Positions 1-18,149 of a stretch of 22,589 nucleotides of DNA are shown here, one piece after another. Source of the DNA: a virus. Within the stretch, counting starts at the first letter, position 1, and every line of letters starts with the position of its first letter. Both the position numbers and the translations under genes were made by a program. The stretch spans positions 1 to 22,589 of the IMG/VR virus record IMGVR_UViG_3300002132_000015; one strand, written 5' to 3'. The notes below the pieces were generated by a model. That model was not told where the DNA came from and did no database searches. It saw only the letters and a list, made by a program, of their open reading frames with translations.

Positions 1-2174
1 ATGAGACTATCAGTAGTGGTAGTAGTACCAGTTTCAGCTACATAGTCAGTGTTAATATATTGTGTGACTATGGCTGCAGAATCTGCAGCCAATGTTTGAT
101 ATATTGTACTTGGAACTTCATTAGCTAATACATCAGCTACCAACAATTTTAATTGTTGGTAGGAAGCAACACCTTCGTCTGCTTCTGCTGCCAGTGTTAC
201 ATATGGAACGCTTTCTTCTGATGCTGAAAGTTCTCCAGCTTCTCCAAATGCTCCTAACAAACTAAAAGCTGCGGCACGCACTTTTAAGTTTCCGCCGTGT
301 CCTAGATCCCAAATTAATCTATCAATAATAAATCCAACATCTCGCTCACACTTGTATTCATCGTAATCAAATGCTGATGTAAATGGAGCAATATCGTTAG
401 TAATCTGATATCTAATCCAAGCACTTATTTCTCGTTGTATAAATGCACGGTTTAATTCTAATAGATACGTTGAATTAGGATTGCGAGCACCCTTCTCTAC
501 TTGTTCACAGGCATATCGGATTGAAGCCCAAGGTTTGTCAAGTGTAATTCCGCAATCCGGAGCTGATCGATCCTCGCCGTTATTGCCAACATAATATACA
601 TAATCTGTACTACCCCAACTAACCCATTCAGGAATACCCGTCGAGCTAACACGAAGGATTTGACCCTCTGTTCCAATTGGCAGTCTTGTTGGGCCAGCGC
701 CACCATAGTATACCATGTCGCCTACTGTAGTTAATACTTCAAGTTCATTACCTACAGAAAGTACATTCCAATATATACCAGAAGAATCTAAGTCTGGACG
801 GCTATTTGCTGCGCCACCACCTTCGGCTTTAACTGACGAGCCATCGTCGCCTTCTGAGCGGTGTGCTAGTACACAGATGTAAGCATTGGCTCCGAATCTA
901 ACAGCATCTCCTGCATTATATTCTACATCATCGATCCAATCACCCTGCCAATAAATGCCGTTAGTAAGTTGTGACCAATACGTAGCATTAGGCGGTTCCG
1001 CAGAAACTCTAGCAGTTAAAGTACCAGTAGCTGTTGATGCATTAAAAGTTGTCCCGCCATATATGTCAGTGATTGTAAAAGTTGTAGAATCTAATACATC
1101 TTTAACATAATATCTTGCGCCGGATAGAACGTTACCAAAGGCAGTTCCTGTAAATCTAATACTCATACCAGCAACCATACCTGTAGTATCGCTAGTAGTA
1201 AATGCATCTGTTGGTCCATCACTGGCTGTGATAGAATACGAATAGCTTGGACTATCTGCAACAGCTAGATAATTATGCCCGTTTACTTTTACAACTTCAC
1301 CAATTTTGTAAGAAGTTGTGTTGATCCAGTCTGCTTGATAGCTTAGACCTTCTGCAAATAAATCCCAATCGCTAGTTGCAGTTAGTGGATTTGCATTTGA
1401 GTTTAGAGTCTTAGCAACATATTGATTACCACCGTAGCGAACAACATCGCCGGGCTGGTAAGCAGTTGAAGAACTCCAATCGTTTTCAAATTCAAAACCT
1501 TCTACATATTGTGTCCAATAAGCAGTATCTGTAGGAAAAGCAACGGCTGCTTCGTGTTTAGTTATACAAATCCAAAGTCCCGCGCCCCACTTAACAATGT
1601 CGTTAACTTTATAACGAGTAGCAGTGACCCATGTTCCTACGTATTCTTGACCTTGTGTAAACACTTGCCAATTTGCGGAATTATCTTCTAAACCCAATTC
1701 AACTGTAGCAGCTGATGTATGTCCAGTGATACAAACATAGTTGATGCCGCCGTATCTAACTATATCGTTAAAATTATATTTTGTAGAAACAGCCCAGTCG
1801 TTACGCCATTCAAACCCTTCTACAAAGGTATCCCAATCTGCGGAGTTGTCTTCTAGTCCTAATGCGGTCGTAGCAGCTGATGTATGTCCGTTTGTACATA
1901 GATAAATTGTACCACCGTACTTAACTAGATCGCCTTCTTCATAGCTTTCGTTAGTTGTCCAGTCGCCTGTCCATCTTTGTCCATCGGACATTAAATTCCA
2001 TTTTGTTGGATTGATATCAAGATCTGTATTAAAATCCGCATCCGAGGTGTGTCCAATTTGACATATATAAACCTTGCCGCCGAATCGAATCACATCGTCT
2101 TTATAGTATGCTGTAGCTCCTGTCCAGACGTCTTTCCATACAAATCTAATTCTACCTAATTTAAATTCTGCCAT
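1..2174 (-). CDS. Giant virion structural/adhesin protein, N-terminal 724 codons (3' end outside window)
   Basis: The reading frame is open from ATG at 2172-2174 to the left edge with no stop, so the protein is longer than 724 aa. GGAG lies just upstream of the start. The N-terminus (MAEFKLGRIRFVWK) matches that of the 1841-aa protein immediately upstream (MAEFKISRFRYTWK), so the two are tandem paralogues. Seven repeats of about 45-65 aa follow, with the pattern W-x5-Y-x3-D-x-V-x-Y/F-G-G-x-x-Y-x-C-x3-H-x-S, resembling carbohydrate-binding modules of families 5/12. An extra FCCH-like segment of about 70 aa is inserted after repeat 6 (near 1010-1250). Next comes a segment with YYVGNNGEDRS and KPWASIRYA, like the start of the beta-helix region in the paralogue, then a helical KCERD...IIDRLIWDL motif. 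Likely role: a tail or baseplate-associated fibre binding host surface glycans. The paralogy and repeats are seen directly; the function is inferred. Confidence 0.85.
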   Translation of the reverse strand, partial: MAEFKLGRIRFVWKDVWTGATAYYKDDVIRFGGKVYICQIGHTSDADFNTDLDINPTKWNLMSDGQRWTGDWTTNESYEEGDLVKYGGTIYLCTNGHTSAATTALGLEDNSADWDTFVEGFEWRNDWAVSTKYNFNDIVRYGGINYVCITGHTSAATVELGLEDNSANWQVFTQGQEYVGTWVTATRYKVNDIVKWGAGLWICITKHEAAVAFPTDTAYWTQYVEGFEFENDWSSSTAYQPGDVVRYGGNQYVAKTLNSNANPLTATSDWDLFAEGLSYQADWINTTSYKIGEVVKVNGHNYLAVADSPSYSYSITASDGPTDAFTTSDTTGMVAGMSIRFTGTAFGNVLSGARYYVKDVLDSTTFTITDIYGGTTFNASTATGTLTARVSAEPPNATYWSQLTNGIYWQGDWIDDVEYNAGDAVRFGANAYICVLAHRSEGDDGSSVKAEGGGAANSRPDLDSSGIYWNVLSVGNELEVLTTVGDMVYYGGAGPTRLPIGTEGQILRVSSTGIPEWVSWGSTDYVYYVGNNGEDRSAPDCGITLDKPWASIRYACEQVEKGARNPNSTYLLELNRAFIQREISAWIRYQITNDIAPFTSAFDYDEYKCERDVGFIIDRLIWDLGHGGNLKVRAAAFSLLGAFGEAGELSASEESVPYVTLAAEADEGVASYQQLKLLVADVLANEVPSTIYQTLAADSAAIVTQYINTDYVAETGTTTTTDSL
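1705..1889 (-). repeat. Near-identical tandem CBM5/12-like repeat units (165-bp period)
   Basis: The same 20 bases, gtagcagctgatgtatgtcc on the plus strand, occur at 1705-1724 and 1870-1889, exactly 165 bp (55 codons) apart. Flanking sequence is also similar (gcggaattatcttcta near 1675 and gcggagttgtcttcta near 1840). They encode the end of repeats 2 and 3 of the giant protein (GHTSAAT...LGLEDNSA in both). The conservation at DNA level, while the other repeats are diverged, points to a recent unit duplication or gene conversion. Confidence 0.8.
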
Positions 2175-2192: not shown

Positions 2193-2200
2193 TATTTATT
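2193..2200 (-). promoter_or_regulatory. T4-type late promoter candidate AATAAATA
   Basis: The minus strand reads AATAAATA, one base off the T4 late promoter TATAAATA. It overlaps the stop codon of the 1841-aa gene and sits 18 bases before the start of the next giant gene. Transcription would start near 2187 and give a leader of about 12 nt that contains the GGAG ribosome binding site. Confidence 0.5.
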
Positions 2201-5200
2201 ACTTTAAACCAAAGCTTCTCACAAACATTGTTTGTGCTAATATGCTTCCACTTATGCTTGCGCCTGCACCTGAAAAATCTGCTATAACATCAAAGTTAAT
2301 AGCTATGTCCGCTGTATTATCTATTAAGTTTGGTCCTACTTTAACTAGACCTGCAATAACACTTGGCGTTAATAGATCCTCACCGCCAATGTTTAGTCTA
2401 GATTGCAAATATGATCTTACCGCTTTTTGCGTAGGAATTACATTATTAGAATTTTGTAAGAACAGCGGATCTTTTGAGAATTCTCTAATAATTGCGGTTG
2501 ACCCAACTCTTACTCCTGCTAGTCGTAATTCTGTTAGACCTGCTAGATCAAAGAAGTCTGCACTAATTGTAACAATAGCAGTAGCTTGTTCAACTGCAAA
2601 CTGATCGCCAGCTCTAAAGTTGCCATCTTGATCAGTTGATGTAAAGAATACCCGTCCACCATTTAGATTAAAAGTTTCCTTTAATGGAGATTTAGTATAC
2701 AGGTAATCTGTATACAGTGTTGGATAATTCGTAGTTTCAAAATTGCCAGCTCCAATATCTAAGAAGTCGTGTCCAGTAATACGAACTTGACTATACTGCT
2801 CTCTAATTACAACTTCCATTCCATGTTCAAAATAGTCAGATAATCTTGCCTGCGGACTAATCTGGAATGTAGATCTAATTGTTCCGTTTGTCAAGAACTC
2901 TTCATTAAGTCCAACAATAACTGCTACATAATAATCCGATCTACCTTTGATATAGAATTGAGCGCCAGGGCCTGGCAACTTTGACAATCCGTCTAATGTT
3001 ATAAACTTACTTCTAGGAGTGACGTCTGCAAATCCGTCTCCGGTAATAGTGACAGCAGTAGTACTAGTTTTATACGAAACTCCTTTTGAGACAAACGTAG
3101 GTTGTGCCAGCACGCCGTCGGCAATTCTTGGTCTAAAAGTAGGAGCTGTTGTTGAACTAGGATCGAATACTGTTCCTATTACATCTTCATCTCTAGTATA
3201 CCCACTACCTGGCTCCCAAAGTTTAACATAATCTATCCCGATGCCTGCGACAACTACTCTTCCCATTGCTCTTGCGCCTGTTCTAATAACATTCAGTACA
3301 GTACCACTAGTTGAGGGAGCAATAATCCAGAACGGATTACTATTTGGTATAGAACTGTCGCCTAACGTTGTATCTGGATTTCCAAACGCTGCAAATCCCC
3401 AATTTTCTGCAGTTGCAGTTTCTCTTGCTGTCCACACAATGCCGTCATAGGATGTGACAATATAAGTTGTAGGACCAGTAGTTGGCTCAGCGGCGATATC
3501 TCTAGATCCAGTATCTCCAACAGCTATAAACACACCTTGACCATATCGAATCTGTTTCCAGTTGTGTAATGTTGAGCCGTCTTGTGTGGGCATTTCTGTA
3601 GGAAGCCAATTCTCACCGTCAAAGCTGTATGCTACCTCGCCGGTATTTGCTATTGCAACAAATCTTCTATTACCGTAAGCAATCGATACCCAATCTTTAG
3701 AGCTCGAATCATCAATAACGTCTAGAATATGCCAAGCCCATGCAATTTCGTTTGTTAACGAATCGTATGTTCCAACGGCCACACTGTTATTACTATTAGC
3801 CAGTGCTACGAACACATCAAAGCCAAACGCAATGTCAACATATTCATTTAGTGTTGAGTCGTTTCCATCTGGTAAAGTTGTAGAAGTCCATGATGTTCCA
3901 TTAATCGAGTAAGCGCCTGCATTTAAATTTCCTGCTACTGCAACAAATACACCAGTATCAGACGTGCTAGGTTTACCATAAGCAACACCGTTCCACTCTC
4001 TAGATGCTGGCATTGTTCTTGCAGTCCAATCGACACCGTTTGTACTACTTGCGGCTGTATTGCTATCATAAGCAATTGCTACAAATTTGTTGTCTCCAGC
4101 TGCTAGACATTTCCAATTACCGTCAGTGGGTAAGTTCGATGCTGTCCAGGTTATACCATCAAGTGAGTACTTAGGAAAGTGTCCTGTTGTTGGAGTTATA
4201 ACAAACACTCCGCTAGGCGCTACATTAGTCTCATCTTTTGAGAATGCTAGTATAGAGTTTGTACTATCGTCGGATACTGTTAACACTGTTAACGTAATAT
4301 CATGTTCTAATGTTGTGCCACCAATATCTTCACCGTTGATAGTTAATGTGTCTCCCACAGCATATCCTGCGCCACCTGTGTCTAGTGCTACTGAATATAC
4401 TCTACCAATTTTAGTGACTGTAAATGTTGCTGCTGCTGGAGCAACATCAACTACATCGCCAGTTCCAACGGTTGCTGCTATACCTGTAAATGTGTCTGAT
4501 GTCTCTCCGTAAACTATCGCGGCAGGTTCGATTGCTGGCGATATTCCTATTTCAGTTGCACTGTATGCAGGCTCGTTAAAGGTTAATCTGGGCTCAATAC
4601 GATAACGTGTACCTGTAGTTAGCAGTGGATTAGAAGGCGTCCCCGGAAGGATATGATCCCATCCTGGTTGATCATCGCTTTCTCTATATACCGTACATAA
4701 TTTTGTGCCGGCATTGTATGAGTAAACATATCCGTATTGTCCAGTACCTTCGCCTGAAATAATAATGATTCTCATTCCAAGAATCTGTTCTTCTGTAGCA
4801 GTTTCAGCAGTTGCTAAACTTATTGTAAGAGTATTACCAAAGTTTGCTTGGTTTCCGTATTGTGAAAATCCAGAGCCTGCACTTAATGTTTGACATTCAA
4901 ACATTGCATTATCTCTAAATTCTTCTTGTATTGCGTCGGCTCCGACTCCCGAACTAGTAATCGTATAGGTTGCTGTGGTATAGTTTTGTCCGCAGTTTGC
5001 AAATTCTAAACCTAAAATAAAGTCTAAAATCTCGCCAGCGAACGCAGAATACACAGTAGCTTGTTCAGTTCTAGTATTAATATATCCATATCTAACAATT
5101 TCGTCTGGATCTACTCCATCAGCAACTGCTCCGAAATCACCGTAGGAACTATTTCCGTTTGTAGCTCTAATGATGCCGCCATTTGTAGCAAACATACCAA

Positions 5201-7724
5201 TGTGTGCATAATACGAGAACACAGATACCAATTCACCGCGCCCACCGTTTAACATCCAAGCGCCAATACCGTCTGATATTACTTGTGTAAAGTCGTTAGA
5301 CACAATAGATTTATTACCGCCGTTATGCAAGTCGCCATCTACTTTTTGACCAACTGCTCCAACACCAATTGTTGTGACGTTTTGTACATAACAACTTCTT
5401 GAAGTAATCCAAGTACGCTCGTCATCTGGACCCCATCCTGGATCTAACGATACAAATGCACCACCAGTTGGAATTTGATATTCATCTCCTTCTACTAATG
5501 CTGGCAGTGTTCCTGCTAATCCTTTTAAGGTCATATTCCTCACGCCGGTGGTATCTCTAACATAGAACATATCTTCTAATTGAGACCCGATAACAGCATT
5601 TGCATAATATCTTCCAGCAAGCAGTGATTTGTAATTTCCGATTCTATCTAAGTCATATCGAACTGCATCAATAAATTTATCAATGTCTCGTCTGCATTTG
5701 TTAGTATCAAAAGAATACTCGGGATTCTCACGAGTCATGTATAGAATTGCTTCAGTTTTAATAAATTCTCTATTATTATCGAGATTTTCTGATGCAAATG
5801 ACGGTGTAATTATATTACTGCCAGTTGTTGTTGGCATGCTTCCAACGCCATTTATTTTATATTCAATAACATCAATTATATTACCCCAAAGAGAATTTGC
5901 TCGAGCTGCTTGGTCCGTAGTTCCTAGTGGGAATATACTTAAAGGTACCGTGTTTCCAACAGACGCTACTACTGGATTTCCTAAAATTATGTCGCTTAGT
6001 AAAGTTCCAATAAAAGTTAGAGTTTCTAATGTGTATTGAGCATCACTTGCTAACGCTGCGATTGGATTGTTTGCTTTAATTGTTGTGCTTCTTAGCTCTT
6101 CACCGAGTACTGTAGTTCTTGCCGGTACAATCAAAGGTAATACTTCTTCGTATTCTCCAGTAGATACATAAACTGATGTACTACCACTATAATTGTCGTC
6201 TGCTTGGTCTAAGGCAAATCTAACAGTTCTCCAAGGTTTAAAATAATTAATGCCGCGGTTAGGATCAGTACTGTCATCTACTCCTGTTGTGCTTACATAG
6301 AAAATTCTTGGTATATTTCCCCAGGTTTTATATCCAACATCGCCTTGATTATTTTCAACAACCAACAGTTGGTCAGTTTCGCCTGCTGGAATTGCAGTTC
6401 TACCAAACGTGCTTCCATCGCCTATAGTTTTTGTGGTGCTACCGTCATAAAGAACATTTCTATAGAGATTATAAGTTATCAAATCTCCAAGATTTGTTAG
6501 AGCAGCGCCTTCGTCGCCGATTAATAAAATAGTCCAATAGCTTATACCTTCTCCGTTATCTCCAGGAAAGTCATCAAATGTACTGTTATGTGGCGTTGAA
6601 CAGTAGTAAACTACGCCTCTATAATATACTACATCATATAAATTATAATCTTGATCAGTTTTCCATGCTCCTTGGAAACCATACGATGAAACTACTAACT
6701 GCCAGTTTGTGTCGTCAAAAACAGTTAACGAACTGTCTTCATCGGAAACTTGATTAGTTAAGCTCACCCATAGTGAACCTCCGCGTCTAACAAGATCTCC
6801 AGCGTTATACGGATATTGCGACCCAGGATCGTATTCTCCTAAAAAATTGTTGGCTTTAGTTATTAATGTCCAATCAGGATTGCCGTCTGGATAACTGTCT
6901 GAAACTCCGGGTGGAATATTTGAATTGTTAATAGAAGAAATATAAACTGTTCCGCCATATCTTACAACATCCCCTATTGCATAATTTGTAGAAGAATTCC
7001 AGTCAGCGTAATAGTTAAACCCTAAAAGATAAATTTCAAATTTTAAATTATCTATAGTTAAGTCAGACAGATGCTCTTCAGTACATTTAAATATAGATCC
7101 GCTATATTTTACTAAATCATTTATTCTATATGACGTTGATGGTGCAAATTCGCCAACATAGGCATAATTTTCTACAGCAATCTTCCATGTTTCGGCAGTA
7201 CTATCGTCTTCGCTGTCGTTATTACCAACAATAACTCCTTCGGAAGTTGTTCCTGAAGTATGCTCTAGTACACATTGATACGTATATCCGTTATATCTAA
7301 TTATATCGTTAACTCTATAGCGAGTAGATTCGGTCCATTCGTTTCTAAAATTTGAACCCGAGGCAAATATTTCCCAATTAATAGTATCACTATTAAATTC
7401 GGTTGAAGAAATATGAGAAGCTACACATAGATATACATTTCCGCCGGCTAATACTAATGTGCCGGGGTCATATCGTATACCGTCAGTCCAATCACCTAGC
7501 CACTCTCTGCCATCTACTGATTTAATCCATGCCGGTGAAGGATTAGTTTGCTCTCCTACTACAAATGTCTGGGCATCATCAAATACATCAGGTGCATGTT
7601 GTCTAATGCAAACCCAGGTTGATCCTCTGTAGTAAACTACATCATCTTTATAATAAAGGGCTAGATCTGCAGACCAGTTGCCTTTCCATGTGTACCTAAA
7701 TCGTGATATCTTAAACTCAGCCAT
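2199..7724 (-). CDS. Giant modular virion protein: CBM5/12-like repeats, beta-helix, Asp-box propeller (1841 aa)
   Basis: ATG at 7722-7724 has AGGAATT upstream. Seven CBM5/12-like repeats fill about residues 1-400 (examples: YKDDVVYYRGSTWVC and YAIGDVVRYGGTVYIS). A segment beginning IFYVSTTGVDDSTD near residue 475, followed by KPWRTVRFALDQA and VLGEELRSTTI, looks like the start of a pectin-lyase-type beta helix. A KCRRDIDKFIDAVRYDL motif follows near residues 680-700. Around 1180-1445 there are five S-x-[DN]-G-x-x-W motifs (SLDGITW, STNGVDW, SINGTSW, SFDGENW, SYDGIVW) alternating with FVAxA strands, as in Asp-box propellers. The C-terminus, with FFTSTDQDGNFRAGD, VTISADFFDLAGLTELRL and VIPTQKAVRSYL, matches a block I know from large marine T4-like virion proteins. 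Probable role: fibre or baseplate-attached adhesin that binds or processes host glycans. No catalytic residues could be assigned, so enzymatic activity is unproven. Confidence 0.88.
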   Translation of the reverse strand: MAEFKISRFRYTWKGNWSADLALYYKDDVVYYRGSTWVCIRQHAPDVFDDAQTFVVGEQTNPSPAWIKSVDGREWLGDWTDGIRYDPGTLVLAGGNVYLCVASHISSTEFNSDTINWEIFASGSNFRNEWTESTRYRVNDIIRYNGYTYQCVLEHTSGTTSEGVIVGNNDSEDDSTAETWKIAVENYAYVGEFAPSTSYRINDLVKYSGSIFKCTEEHLSDLTIDNLKFEIYLLGFNYYADWNSSTNYAIGDVVRYGGTVYISSINNSNIPPGVSDSYPDGNPDWTLITKANNFLGEYDPGSQYPYNAGDLVRRGGSLWVSLTNQVSDEDSSLTVFDDTNWQLVVSSYGFQGAWKTDQDYNLYDVVYYRGVVYYCSTPHNSTFDDFPGDNGEGISYWTILLIGDEGAALTNLGDLITYNLYRNVLYDGSTTKTIGDGSTFGRTAIPAGETDQLLVVENNQGDVGYKTWGNIPRIFYVSTTGVDDSTDPNRGINYFKPWRTVRFALDQADDNYSGSTSVYVSTGEYEEVLPLIVPARTTVLGEELRSTTIKANNPIAALASDAQYTLETLTFIGTLLSDIILGNPVVASVGNTVPLSIFPLGTTDQAARANSLWGNIIDVIEYKINGVGSMPTTTGSNIITPSFASENLDNNREFIKTEAILYMTRENPEYSFDTNKCRRDIDKFIDAVRYDLDRIGNYKSLLAGRYYANAVIGSQLEDMFYVRDTTGVRNMTLKGLAGTLPALVEGDEYQIPTGGAFVSLDPGWGPDDERTWITSRSCYVQNVTTIGVGAVGQKVDGDLHNGGNKSIVSNDFTQVISDGIGAWMLNGGRGELVSVFSYYAHIGMFATNGGIIRATNGNSSYGDFGAVADGVDPDEIVRYGYINTRTEQATVYSAFAGEILDFILGLEFANCGQNYTTATYTITSSGVGADAIQEEFRDNAMFECQTLSAGSGFSQYGNQANFGNTLTISLATAETATEEQILGMRIIIISGEGTGQYGYVYSYNAGTKLCTVYRESDDQPGWDHILPGTPSNPLLTTGTRYRIEPRLTFNEPAYSATEIGISPAIEPAAIVYGETSDTFTGIAATVGTGDVVDVAPAAATFTVTKIGRVYSVALDTGGAGYAVGDTLTINGEDIGGTTLEHDITLTVLTVSDDSTNSILAFSKDETNVAPSGVFVITPTTGHFPKYSLDGITWTASNLPTDGNWKCLAAGDNKFVAIAYDSNTAASSTNGVDWTARTMPASREWNGVAYGKPSTSDTGVFVAVAGNLNAGAYSINGTSWTSTTLPDGNDSTLNEYVDIAFGFDVFVALANSNNSVAVGTYDSLTNEIAWAWHILDVIDDSSSKDWVSIAYGNRRFVAIANTGEVAYSFDGENWLPTEMPTQDGSTLHNWKQIRYGQGVFIAVGDTGSRDIAAEPTTGPTTYIVTSYDGIVWTARETATAENWGFAAFGNPDTTLGDSSIPNSNPFWIIAPSTSGTVLNVIRTGARAMGRVVVAGIGIDYVKLWEPGSGYTRDEDVIGTVFDPSSTTAPTFRPRIADGVLAQPTFVSKGVSYKTSTTAVTITGDGFADVTPRSKFITLDGLSKLPGPGAQFYIKGRSDYYVAVIVGLNEEFLTNGTIRSTFQISPQARLSDYFEHGMEVVIREQYSQVRITGHDFLDIGAGNFETTNYPTLYTDYLYTKSPLKETFNLNGGRVFFTSTDQDGNFRAGDQFAVEQATAIVTISADFFDLAGLTELRLAGVRVGSTAIIREFSKDPLFLQNSNNVIPTQKAVRSYLQSRLNIGGEDLLTPSVIAGLVKVGPNLIDNTADIAINFDVIADFSGAGASISGSILAQTMFVRSFGLK

Positions 7725-7738
7725 TCTTAATTCCTATT

Positions 7739-8113
7739 TTATGAAGAAATGCCATCTGGGTATGCATACCCTCTGTTAATTCTTATTATAAACTGTCCTT
7801 CGTTGTCTACGTAATAAAACAACGATCTCTCGTCCCATTTAAATTGAGGATATTTCATATTGTCGTCTACAGATTCATGTGCGACATCTATGCCTTCAAA
7901 ATAATCCACGCCAGCTTCAAAGTCTTCAAAGTCTTCTCCCGCTGGACCTGGAATGTTTAATTCGTATGCTTCGGTATCAGATATCTGATTGCTTCGAACC
8001 ATAAACAATTCGCCGTCTTCATTTCTTCTAAGAGCATACCAAAACTTAGGACTATTGCCTAATGATTCTGAAGGTGTAGTACCTAAATAATACGGACTTG
8101 AATTTCCTGCCAT
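7739..8113 (-). CDS. Small conserved virion-region protein (124 aa), function unknown
   Basis: ATG at 8111-8113 has a strong AAGGAGC ribosome binding site. The protein is acidic and rich in Tyr and Phe, with FWYALRRNEDGELFMVR near the N-terminus, an acidic middle (AGEDFEDFEAGVDYFEG) and a C-terminal WDERSLFYYV...FIIRINRGY that looks like short beta strands. There is no signal peptide, membrane segment or known catalytic motif. It lies between a small beta-sandwich protein and the giant adhesin, with gaps of 10-14 nt. I recall similar FWY-LRRNE-GELF proteins beside giant structural genes in marine T4-like phages. A virion component or a partner of the giant protein is the likely role, but this is inference from position. 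Confidence 0.72.
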   Translation of the reverse strand: MAGNSSPYYLGTTPSESLGNSPKFWYALRRNEDGELFMVRSNQISDTEAYELNIPGPAGEDFEDFEAGVDYFEGIDVAHESVDDNMKYPQFKWDERSLFYYVDNEGQFIIRINRGYAYPDGISS

Positions 8114-8460: not shown

Positions 8461-9528
8461 TTATCCTAATGTTAAAGCATATGAAACGGCAATATCTTCC
8501 GCTTGCGTACCACTAACAGCACCAGATGTACCTGCAGGGCTTGCCCATACTGCGCCATCCCACACTTCAAGAGCTTTAGAATTAGTGTTATATCGTGTCA
8601 TTCCAACTGGTAGTGCTCCGTAGCCTAACAGCCCGCTTGGACGTTGGGCATCAGAACCAACTGGCGGAACAAAGCCTCCAGTTCCTTGAATCTTAAAATA
8701 TCCTGTTCCGCTCTGTGCAATTTGACTAATTGCTCCGGATACCACATTAGTAATAGTGTTATCAGATATTTTAAAATTGCCTAATCTAACGCCGCCGCTG
8801 CCATTGCCGTCGATATATAAATCTAAACCAGTAGTTGTTGTGATTTCGTTGTCGCGGAACATCAAGTTGCCAATGTCTAGTGACGGGACTTGAATAGAGT
8901 CTGTGTAAAAATCGTAAGCGTAAACTGCTCTCCAACGGAAAGCAGCAGAACCTAAATCATATGTGTTGTCAGCTTGGGGAACTAGATCACTTTTGATACT
9001 AGCATTAATTACAATCTCGTCTGTTAGTGCATCACCGATCTGAATGTTGCCACCAATTACCACGTTGCCAGTAGCGTTTATATTTCCAGTGACATCTAGA
9101 TTACCTGTAATATTTGTATTTCCAATAATGCTAACAATGCCTGCTCCGTTTGGAACTAGTTCAATAGAACTGTTAGAAACTGTTGTGGAAATTTTATTAC
9201 CTTGCAATTGCAAATCGTCGATTTGTAATCTGCTGTGATATACTGTAGCTTCGCCTGCCGCTGCGGAAAAGTTAATTGTCGAACTATCACTAGTAATAGT
9301 ATTACCTGTGATGTGAAAGTTTCCAACGTTTAGTTGATTGTCGACTGTAATATCAGTAGTGTGGATGTGACCGTTGACGTCTAAGTCTGTAGAGGGCGTG
9401 GCTGTCTTGACACCAATTCTAGAATTGTTTACATCTATATATAATAGATCAGTCTCAAAAGCTAAATCTACGCCTGCGCGAAGTAGATTTGACTTCAGGA
9501 GTTGACCTGAAATGCGACCAATAGCCAT
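8461..9528 (-). CDS. Fibre-type virion structural protein, GRISGQLL family (355 aa)
   Basis: ATG at 9526-9528 follows a strong GAGGAG site. The N-terminus (IGRISGQLLKSNLLRAGVDL, then LLYIDVNNSRIGVKTATP) is shared with the 363-aa gene upstream, so they are paralogues. The middle is made of short repeats of the type GNTNITGNLDVTGNINATGN, typical of trimeric beta-fibre shafts. NTYDLGSAAFRWRAVYAYDF follows, a motif common in phage tail fibres. A C-terminal module (RYNT...LEVWDGAVWAS) and the end AVSYALTLG parallel the other paralogue. Probable role: a fibre or whisker subunit. The gene is preceded by an unusually long leader with its own late-type promoter, so it may be expressed separately from the upstream paralogue. 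Confidence 0.85.
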   Translation of the reverse strand: MAIGRISGQLLKSNLLRAGVDLAFETDLLYIDVNNSRIGVKTATPSTDLDVNGHIHTTDITVDNQLNVGNFHITGNTITSDSSTINFSAAAGEATVYHSRLQIDDLQLQGNKISTTVSNSSIELVPNGAGIVSIIGNTNITGNLDVTGNINATGNVVIGGNIQIGDALTDEIVINASIKSDLVPQADNTYDLGSAAFRWRAVYAYDFYTDSIQVPSLDIGNLMFRDNEITTTTGLDLYIDGNGSGGVRLGNFKISDNTITNVVSGAISQIAQSGTGYFKIQGTGGFVPPVGSDAQRPSGLLGYGALPVGMTRYNTNSKALEVWDGAVWASPAGTSGAVSGTQAEDIAVSYALTLG

Positions 9529-9645
9529 GCGCTCTCCTCATAAGCAAAACACCGTGTTGCACGGATAACCAATTTCTCATCCCTTACGGGCTCTTTGCTG
9601 GTTTACCACAGTCGGATCCTGCTCAGGTCGGCCAACCCTTGCAAT
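9529..9645 (-). other. Long structured 5' leader upstream of the 355-aa fibre gene
   Basis: This is the longest non-coding stretch in the window. If transcription starts about 6 nt downstream of the CATAAATA motif at 9652-9659, the leader is about 117 nt. Read on the minus strand it holds several small potential hairpins: GGTT-GGCC-GACC, CCC-GTAA-GGG (GNRA-type loop), and CCGTG-CAA-CACGG at 9552-9564 shortly before the GAGGAG site. It matches no RNA family that I can name. It might control translation or attenuate transcription. Confidence 0.45.
9552..9564 (-). other. Hairpin CCGTG-CAA-CACGG in the leader
   Basis: A perfect 5-bp stem with a 3-nt loop lies about 15 nt upstream of the ribosome binding site of the 355-aa gene. 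On the minus strand it is followed by TGTTTT. It resembles a weak intrinsic terminator or a structure near the translation start. The stem is short and the U-tract interrupted, so termination is doubtful. Confidence 0.35.
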
Positions 9646-9651
9646 TACATG

Positions 9652-9659
9652 TATTTATG
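9652..9659 (-). promoter_or_regulatory. T4-type late promoter candidate CATAAATA
   Basis: The minus strand reads CATAAATA, seven of eight bases of the T4 late consensus. It lies in the gap between the two fibre paralogues, 12 bases past the stop codon of the first. It would drive the 355-aa gene and the downstream genes through the long leader at 9529-9645. Confidence 0.55.
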
Positions 9660-9671
9660 CCTTTGGAGAAA

Positions 9672-10763
9672 TTACCCTAGAACAAGAGTCCAGACATTGC
9701 CTAGATCGTTCATAATAGTTTCAGTGACCTCATCACCACCACCTGTGGATAATGTCCATACGCTGCCATCGAAACATTCAAGATATTCTTGATCAGTATT
9801 CCATCTCGTTTCACCTAACTCCGGCGATGTTGTTCGTTCTGCATCTGTACCTGCAGGAATCAGCATTCCGTTGTCACCTGCGAATCGATAATAAGATGGG
9901 CCAGTCACTGCTAAATTTAGTGATGTATTATTGAGATTAGTAATATCACTATCTTCCCACTTAGTACGTTCAATATAAACAATACCAGTATCGGGATTTA
10001 AAGTAATGTCTTCATTAGACTGCTGTGCAAAAATTTGATTATTAACGCCGTCTAGTTTAGTCTGTCCACTGATTGTGACAGATAGCGGGTGTAATGCATC
10101 TCCGGCATATCCGCCTTTTGTAATGTTAGTCCAGTCTGGAGAATGTAGTTGTGCCCAGCGTCTAGGACTAGAGTCACCTGCATCCCATCCCAACGTATAT
10201 GTTAGGTCGTCCCCGGGTAATATGTCTTGAGTAAAGTCTGTATTAACTGTGACAGTATCAAGAATTTGATCGCCAAGTATTAATCGACTTAATCCAATTA
10301 AATCGCCATCCATGGAAATATTTCCGCTAACTGCAAGATTACCTGTGATGAGTGTGTTTGCTGCCAGTTCGATTGTTCCTGAACCGTTTGGATCAAATAC
10401 AATGTTAGAATCGTTGACACTAGAAATTAAATTTCCATCAAGTACTAAATTAGCGGTTGTTAATCTATCATGAAATATTTCGCTGCCAGCAATATAAACA
10501 TCAATGCCGCCTACACTTGTTGTAAATATACCAGCTGTATTAATTCTAATATTATCAATAGAAGCAGTGTTGTCACTGGTTAATTCTAATGAGTGTATAT
10601 CTAAATTAACATCTAGATCGTAAATTGGTGAGGTTTGATTAATACTAATCTTTTGATTAGATACATCAAGATACAGTAAGTCTGTTTCAACAGATAAGTC
10701 AACCCCAGCGCGGAGTAAGTTGTCGTCTAATAGTTGACCACCTATGCGCCCTACTTGACTCAT
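9672..10763 (-). CDS. Fibre-type virion structural protein, GRIGGQLL family (363 aa)
   Basis: ATG at 10761-10763 follows the stop codon of the 191-aa gene by 2 nt with no strong ribosome binding site, so translation is probably coupled. The N-terminus (VGRIGGQLLDDNLLRAGVDL, then LLYLDVSNQKISI) pairs it with the 355-aa protein. The centre has fibre-like repeats (NTLITGNLAVSGNISMDGD) followed by LTYTLGWDAGDSSPRRWAQL, a variant of the YDLGS...RW motif of phage fibres. The C-terminus has PAGTDAERT, RWNTDQEYLECFDGSVW and the end VWTLVLG. The two paralogues are clearly diverged at DNA level. Probable role: a second fibre or whisker subunit, perhaps forming a heteromer with its paralogue. Confidence 0.85.
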   Translation of the reverse strand: MSQVGRIGGQLLDDNLLRAGVDLSVETDLLYLDVSNQKISINQTSPIYDLDVNLDIHSLELTSDNTASIDNIRINTAGIFTTSVGGIDVYIAGSEIFHDRLTTANLVLDGNLISSVNDSNIVFDPNGSGTIELAANTLITGNLAVSGNISMDGDLIGLSRLILGDQILDTVTVNTDFTQDILPGDDLTYTLGWDAGDSSPRRWAQLHSPDWTNITKGGYAGDALHPLSVTISGQTKLDGVNNQIFAQQSNEDITLNPDTGIVYIERTKWEDSDITNLNNTSLNLAVTGPSYYRFAGDNGMLIPAGTDAERTTSPELGETRWNTDQEYLECFDGSVWTLSTGGGDEVTETIMNDLGNVWTLVLG

Positions 10764-17495: not shown

Positions 17496-18149
17496 TTAAA
17501 TGGTACTTTTTTGATTCATTTGGTCTGAATATATAGTATCAGGAAAAATATTTGAAAATTCCTTGTACGTTATATGAGACAAATTAGATAGCGTTGGACC
17601 TAACTTATCGGGTATGAATGCTCCCGGTTCTATTACTCTAAAAAACTTTACATGTCTAAATTCTTTAATTACTTTCTCAGTTTGACTGAGCCAATTACCA
17701 AAGTATGTAGCTGAATCTACAGACTTTTTGTAGTTAAATGTATCTGCATACATGTTGTTAAACTTTCCATCAGTTCCTTGATAGTCAAATCCAAAAATGT
17801 ATATTACAGTATGTCCTTGAGATGCAGCATGCCATAGTGCAGTCGGTCCACTACTCCATCCTTTGTGAGGACTAAAAAAATTAATATTATTCTTAGTCTG
17901 TATTCCTTTGTTAGGATTTGTCCACACTGAATGAGTTTTGTGATAGCCTGAACTTATAATCTCATTGACCATTTTTACGTCAACTGCAATAATATGATGA
18001 GGATTGTATTCTCTGTACTGTGCATTACAGCCGTAGACTATTCCCTTGGTTAACAACGATTCTGGATTTAATTGAGATCTACTAGTTCCGTTGCCTACTA
18101 CAAAGGCTGGATTATTCTGCTGCTGCTTCTTCACCGACTGGAGTTCCAT
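17496..18149 (-). CDS. Putative GNGxSR-type nucleotide-sugar-binding / glycosyltransferase-like protein (217 aa)
   Basis: FVVGNGTSRSQL near residues 16-27 is a glycine-rich loop like that in GT42 sialyltransferases and DUF115-type enzymes (AGNGPS...). It is followed by IVYGCNAQYREYNPHHIIAVD (split across 37-57), SSGPTALWHAA, and VIYIFGFDYQG with NMYADTFNYKKS. This layout suggests a Rossmann-like sugar-nucleotide domain. The family assignment is moderate, and the substrate and reaction are unknown. The first 38 nt overlap the end of the 82-aa gene; a GTG at 18132-18134 is an alternative start, and neither has a strong ribosome binding site, so coupling is likely. T4 has no such gene between portal and protease. 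Six sampled 60-base rows have 28-42% G+C, lower than rows I counted in gp23 (42-53%), which fits insertion of a foreign gene. Confidence 0.8.
   Translation of the reverse strand: MELQSVKKQQQNNPAFVVGNGTSRSQLNPESLLTKGIVYGCNAQYREYNPHHIIAVDVKMVNEIISSGYHKTHSVWTNPNKGIQTKNNINFFSPHKGWSSGPTALWHAASQGHTVIYIFGFDYQGTDGKFNNMYADTFNYKKSVDSATYFGNWLSQTEKVIKEFRHVKFFRVIEPGAFIPDKLGPTLSNLSHITYKEFSNIFPDTIYSDQMNQKSTI

Follow-up and report, generated by a model that had tools for sequence, protein, structure and literature searches.

The window analysed here, the whole 22,589-nucleotide stretch of virus record IMGVR_UViG_3300002132_000015, is a 22.6 kb fragment of a T4-like myovirus in which the T4-like portal gp20, an S77 prohead protease and the major capsid protein gp23 are encoded near a large fibre gene. 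This gene, termed A, is a minus-strand ORF (2199-7724) with an ATG start that encodes 1841 aa. Its residues 125-932 matched the PHROGs profile phrog_9851 (tail fiber protein) with an E of 1.5e-133; an NCBIfam search with the gene A protein gave zero matches. Seventeen full-length relatives were found in IMG/VR, sharing 52-69% identity over the best segment. Gene B, a tandem paralogue of A, is cut by the record end and holds seven CBM5/12 stretches (Pfam); in close relatives it encodes about 2550 aa and includes a propeller of its own. The 124-aa gene directly upstream of A is 26% identical to P-SSM2 YP_214531 (BLASTP E 1e-8 in a single-pair comparison). The features of the locus, with residue numbers of the gene A protein and the basis of each assignment, are as follows.

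2199-7724, minus strand: fibre gene A (ORF; phrog_9851 match; IMG/VR relatives)
3-2174, minus strand: fibre gene B, a paralogue of A truncated at the record end (Pfam CBM5/12)
7739-8113, minus strand: 124-aa gene directly upstream of A (synteny with P-SSM2 YP_214531, T4-GC 295)
6495-7724, minus strand: CBM5/12-type repeat region, residues 1-410 (Pfam PF02839)
5115-6308, minus strand: predicted beta-helix, about residues 473-870 (AlphaFold2 model and VIA fold match)
5589-6044, minus strand: mostly helical insertion within the beta-helix, about residues 561-712 (model secondary structure)
3285-4568, minus strand: optional cassette, about residues 1053-1480 (missing as a block from 13 homologues)
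3285-4229, minus strand: predicted beta-propeller blades, about residues 1166-1480 (AlphaFold2; fold match)
4146-4166, minus strand: short Asp-box 1, SLDGITW, residue 1187 (motif match)
4026-4046, minus strand: short Asp-box 2, STNGVDW, residue 1227 (motif match)
3888-3908, minus strand: short Asp-box 3, SINGTSW, residue 1273 (motif match)
3606-3626, minus strand: short Asp-box 4, SFDGENW, residue 1367 (motif match)
3432-3452, minus strand: short Asp-box 5, SYDGIVW, residue 1425 (motif match)
2808-3284, minus strand: segment right of the cassette, residues 1481-1639 (present in propeller-less homologues)
2355-2807, minus strand: conserved C-terminal block, residues 1640-1790 (present in cultured isolates)

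CBM5/12 repeats, a beta-helix and the conserved C-terminal block form the frame of the gene A protein. Pfam detected PF02839 (CBM5/12) in four stretches, with an E of 3.3e-26 and a score of 91.5 bits against a curated cut-off of 26.2, which bears out the repeats proposed in a first-pass annotation of this DNA. An AlphaFold2 model of residues 440-960, built on 47 related sequences, reached a mean pLDDT of 83.8 and contained the beta-helix that the same annotation had called; its best VIA match was the cyanophage Pam1 tailspike (7eea; Z 17.8, rmsd 2.5, 192 residues), and many further matches to the right-handed beta-helix fold (pectate-lyase-like, tailspikes) had a Z above 14. Residues 1481-1639 open with a GSGY-type unit and lead into the C-terminal block, whose mean identity among A proteins is 72%; the last 200 residues of the protein were modelled with a pLDDT below 50.

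This frame recurs in the fibres of cultured marine T4-like phages. Like gene A, the fibres of P-SSM2 (YP_214532, T4-GC 296), S-CAM3 (YP_009321360) and pelagiphage Mosig (QOI69027) belong to phrog_9851, and they share with A a CBM5/12-type N-terminus, beta-helix segments and the C-terminal block (44-47% identity); in P-SSM2 a similar small gene also lies just upstream. At 1090-1326 aa, however, they are shorter than the 1841-aa gene A protein, no propeller was detected in these three fibres, and in the cultured T4-like relatives a single fibre was matched, whereas the gene A group carries A and B in tandem. The best viral structure match, A0A6J7WHK8 (UniProt, uncultured Caudovirales phage; E 4e-37, 23% identity), is a 'ChiC_BD domain containing protein', that is, by its name it has a chitin-binding-type N-terminal domain, as does A.

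A second AlphaFold2 model (residues 931-1841, built on 23 sequences) gave pLDDT values of mostly 80-95 over the propeller. VIA-align superimposed residues 1052-1485 on virginiamycin B lyase (2z2o) with a Z of 31.1 and an rmsd of 2.4 over 283 residues; a PDB sequence search with the propeller profile returned no match. Structure prediction and fold search of the propeller and helix regions thus recovered both folds, and agree with the earlier placement of a propeller between the helix and the conserved C-terminal block. The likeness to virginiamycin B lyase (2z2o, 2z2n, 2qc5), an antibiotic-degrading enzyme, is one of fold only, at about 14% identity. The alignment to the lyase begins at residue 1052, which suggests that strands ahead of the GSGY-type unit may take part in closing the propeller ring.

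The five S-x-[DN]-G-x-x-W motifs claimed for this region were all found within two residues of the positions given, along with FVAxA-type strands at residues 1214, 1260, 1305 and 1355. A sixth copy of the motif lies at residue 69, inside the CBM region; shuffled versions of the gene A protein (n = 2000) contained a mean of 0.036 such motifs and a maximum of 2. The sequence of residues 1166-1480 can be parsed into about seven blade-like units, and the best structural matches are seven-bladed proteins. The propeller is thus probably seven-bladed and not five-bladed, while the five motifs and the FVAxA strands stand. The label 'Asp-box-like' is right, as all five propeller motifs match the short Asp-box, published as S/t-X-D/n-X-X-X-W/f/y (PMC2716378), but the canonical form S-X-D-X-G-X-T-W, in which one residue separates Asp and Gly, had zero matches in the gene A protein. 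The fit to the short form does not, however, imply a sialidase.

The propeller is part of a block that is not present in every homologue. It was found in gene A of all relatives retrieved with the whole protein (17/17), and in gene B of those relatives wherever the contig covers that part. In a wider homologue set, obtained by searching with the C-terminal block alone, 13 homologues had no propeller but kept both flanks, which abut (-15 to 8 residues by profile ends); in single-propeller proteins about 180 to 345 residues separate the same flank profiles. Relatives of this kind had been set as a test by the first-pass annotation, and the domain order is indeed not the same in all relatives, with the propeller absent, single or double. 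Most propeller-less homologues read xIEPRxxFxxP and then xGxxAxGRAxV at the junction. In the gene A protein the equivalent positions are 1043-1052 and from about 1481 on, which places the insert at about residues 1053-1480; it comprises a segment of strands, a GSGY-type unit and the propeller. At this junction the cultured relatives are too remote to be aligned. An assembly artefact is unlikely to explain the missing propellers, because the proteins concerned are encoded by long ORFs (one open at the contig end) of diverged sequence on separate contigs. Some propeller-less B proteins carry another insertion, of about 80 residues, to the right of the junction (relatives L168:9718-15141 and L171:7058-12757).

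At the other extreme, in five B proteins, which come from four or five contigs, the junction holds about 650 residues with nine motifs, and these proteins carry two propellers; three A proteins (L147:2803-8517, L151:3529-9645, L154:3955-9648) have a second propeller match between the GSGY-type segment and the C-terminal block. These two-propeller counts rest on distances and motif numbers, and automatic counts are inflated by a repeat inserted in gene B. Among the 69 contigs with both genes, the propeller was present in both in 57, in A only in 10, in B only in 2 and in neither in 0; with so few cases, the absence of 'neither' contigs is not significant.

What might such a propeller do? The first-pass annotation had suggested a sialidase-like or purely binding domain, and the propeller could be a glycan-degrading enzyme (a sialidase or other depolymerase), as in phage endosialidases, with which the fibre cuts through capsule. 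Phages with propeller depolymerases exist (PMC11326577), and the top fold match of the propeller is itself an enzyme, a lyase. We nevertheless consider catalysis unlikely. Among the propellers of 14 close relatives there is no invariant Glu, and Pfam assigned no sialidase or BNR family to the 14 members searched. Of the charged or amide columns in 145 fibre propellers, only three (two Asp, one Gln) reached 80% or more, two of them belonging to the Asp-box; conserved positions are almost all W, G, S, Y or F, and those invariant across A and B propellers are nearly all structural. The catalytic set of GH33/GH58 sialidases (Tyr-Glu pair, Asp, Arg triad) was not seen in the propeller alignments. 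The scarcity of conserved polar columns and the lack of an invariant Glu make a conserved active site improbable, and the sialidase reading, which also found no Pfam or PDB sequence match, was dropped. In the close clade, certain polar residues do not vary, and conserved ones such as D1382, H1387 and R1434 leave room for a clade-specific activity.

We regard binding as the most likely role of the propeller, by analogy with Gp45 of Staphylococcus phage phi11 and with the propeller lectins of extracellular contractile injection systems. The cavity of the phi11 receptor-binding protein could hold GlcNAc, and Gp45 resembles the gene A protein in placing a propeller, likely sugar-binding, in a multidomain adhesin (PMC4901313). 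It differs in being five-bladed, in its trimeric platform and in its other stem and tower domains (PMC4901313); phi11 is moreover a siphophage of a Gram-positive host, and the likeness is one of description. PhiKZ gp131C, a seven-bladed propeller at a myophage baseplate whose function is unproven, is comparable by description only (PMC4901313). The fibres of contractile injection systems, again likened to A by description, use a beta-propeller as binding domain in a tail-derived fibre, but have collagen-like shafts and other partners (PMC12923769).

The predominance of structural residues would also fit a spacer or fibre-assembly scaffold, for instance a subunit or baseplate contact, with no ligand of its own, as would the finding that the propeller is no more variable than other outer regions of the protein. 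Its complete absence from 13 homologues, however, shows that the fibre can assemble without it, and propellers of other phage adhesins are thought to be receptor-binding (PMC4901313), so that a mere scaffold seems improbable to us. Under the binding role that we prefer, the propeller would be a non-catalytic platform whose ligands are probably surface glycans, and would supply host contact beyond that of the CBMs and the helix.

The modular make-up had been taken to suggest host-range evolution by domain swapping. Variation in the presence of the propeller is real: on a tree of helix plus C-terminal block, built with a quick method and a simple model, presence changes at least four times, and two of these changes are forced by strongly supported branches. 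This might reflect recent exchange between unrelated phages or paralogues instead of inheritance, and in a quick tree the B propeller of relative L183 fell among divergent A propellers, as though it had hopped from A to B. In the careful tree, however, this placement was unsupported, and a grouping of the L183 propeller with the other B propellers could not be rejected (AU p 0.48). The B propellers fall into a single clade (support 97/89), and the propellers of the fibres stand apart from those found in bacteria and in other phages. Exchange among the A proteins fared no better as an explanation, since the most discordant pairs are equally diverged in their other outer regions, which leaves no clear swap, and searches with their propellers and with their backbones led mostly to the same relatives. 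The GC content of the cassette (42%, compared with 38-39% in the rest of gene A) differs too little to be a sign of recent transfer. Propeller identity correlates with backbone identity (Spearman 0.64); this, together with a variability like that of the CBM region, speaks for inheritance with losses or gains more than for frequent exchange, which we rate as quite unlikely. The A and B propellers mostly follow the tree of their genes, so that of the modular scenario the presence and absence stood, and swapping as proposed found no support.

Our preferred reading, which we hold to be probable, is that gene A encodes a tail-fibre or baseplate-attached adhesin of phrog_9851 with an optional cassette at one junction and a non-catalytic binding propeller. 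The propeller was most likely in place before or near the A/B duplication, and most likely was inherited with its genes, with several losses or gains afterwards. Where two genes lie in tandem, one of them may go without a propeller while the other retains one. The fibre probably helps the virus to hold its host. Photosynthesis genes give no hint of a cyanobacterial host, as a search for psbA in seven long relatives, which reach 281 kb but may be incomplete, found none. More tentatively, the insert could be a discrete recognition cassette that is added, doubled or dropped at one set point of the two tandem fibre genes, in which case the adhesion repertoire could be altered in one gene while a propeller copy is retained in the other.

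Phage adhesins with propellers and with CBMs are already known, and tail-fibre domain mosaicism and the modularity of receptor-binding proteins are well documented (PMC10684548). New, as far as our searches show, are the exact optional cassette in phrog_9851 fibres and its separate fate in tandem genes, which extend this modularity (PMC10684548) to a defined insert in a marine T4-like fibre family. The two fibre forms constitute a natural present/absent pair with exact boundaries in widespread uncultured large T4-like phages, and make a role of the propeller in host attachment directly testable.

Several further observations were made in the window and its relatives. A 217-aa gene without a Pfam match (17496-18149) separates the prohead genes from the portal gene, and two adjacent genes of 355 aa and 363 aa (8461-10763) have similar N-termini (GRIxGQLLxxNLLRAGVDL), as a duplicated pair would. 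Some relatives have a third gene, of about 1100 aa and located upstream of A, that includes the C-terminal block (L111:2-3391, L148:3-3200, L174:570-3893). Gene B propellers (L002:13560-21221 and others) hold an inserted unit of the type ETAGxFVxGRxYxITxxGNTxFTxIGAxxNxVGTxFxATGxGxGTGTA, which looks like another mobile fibre module. Propellers of the sequence type studied here occur in many bacteria (L184-L213), including Bacteroidetes, Spirochaetes, Actinobacteria, Patescibacteria and others. In Synechococcus phage B23 (L214:4937-5776), a related propeller frame, an ORF of 323 residues, runs opposite b23_0328 and b23_0329, and these annotated small genes may be on the wrong strand.
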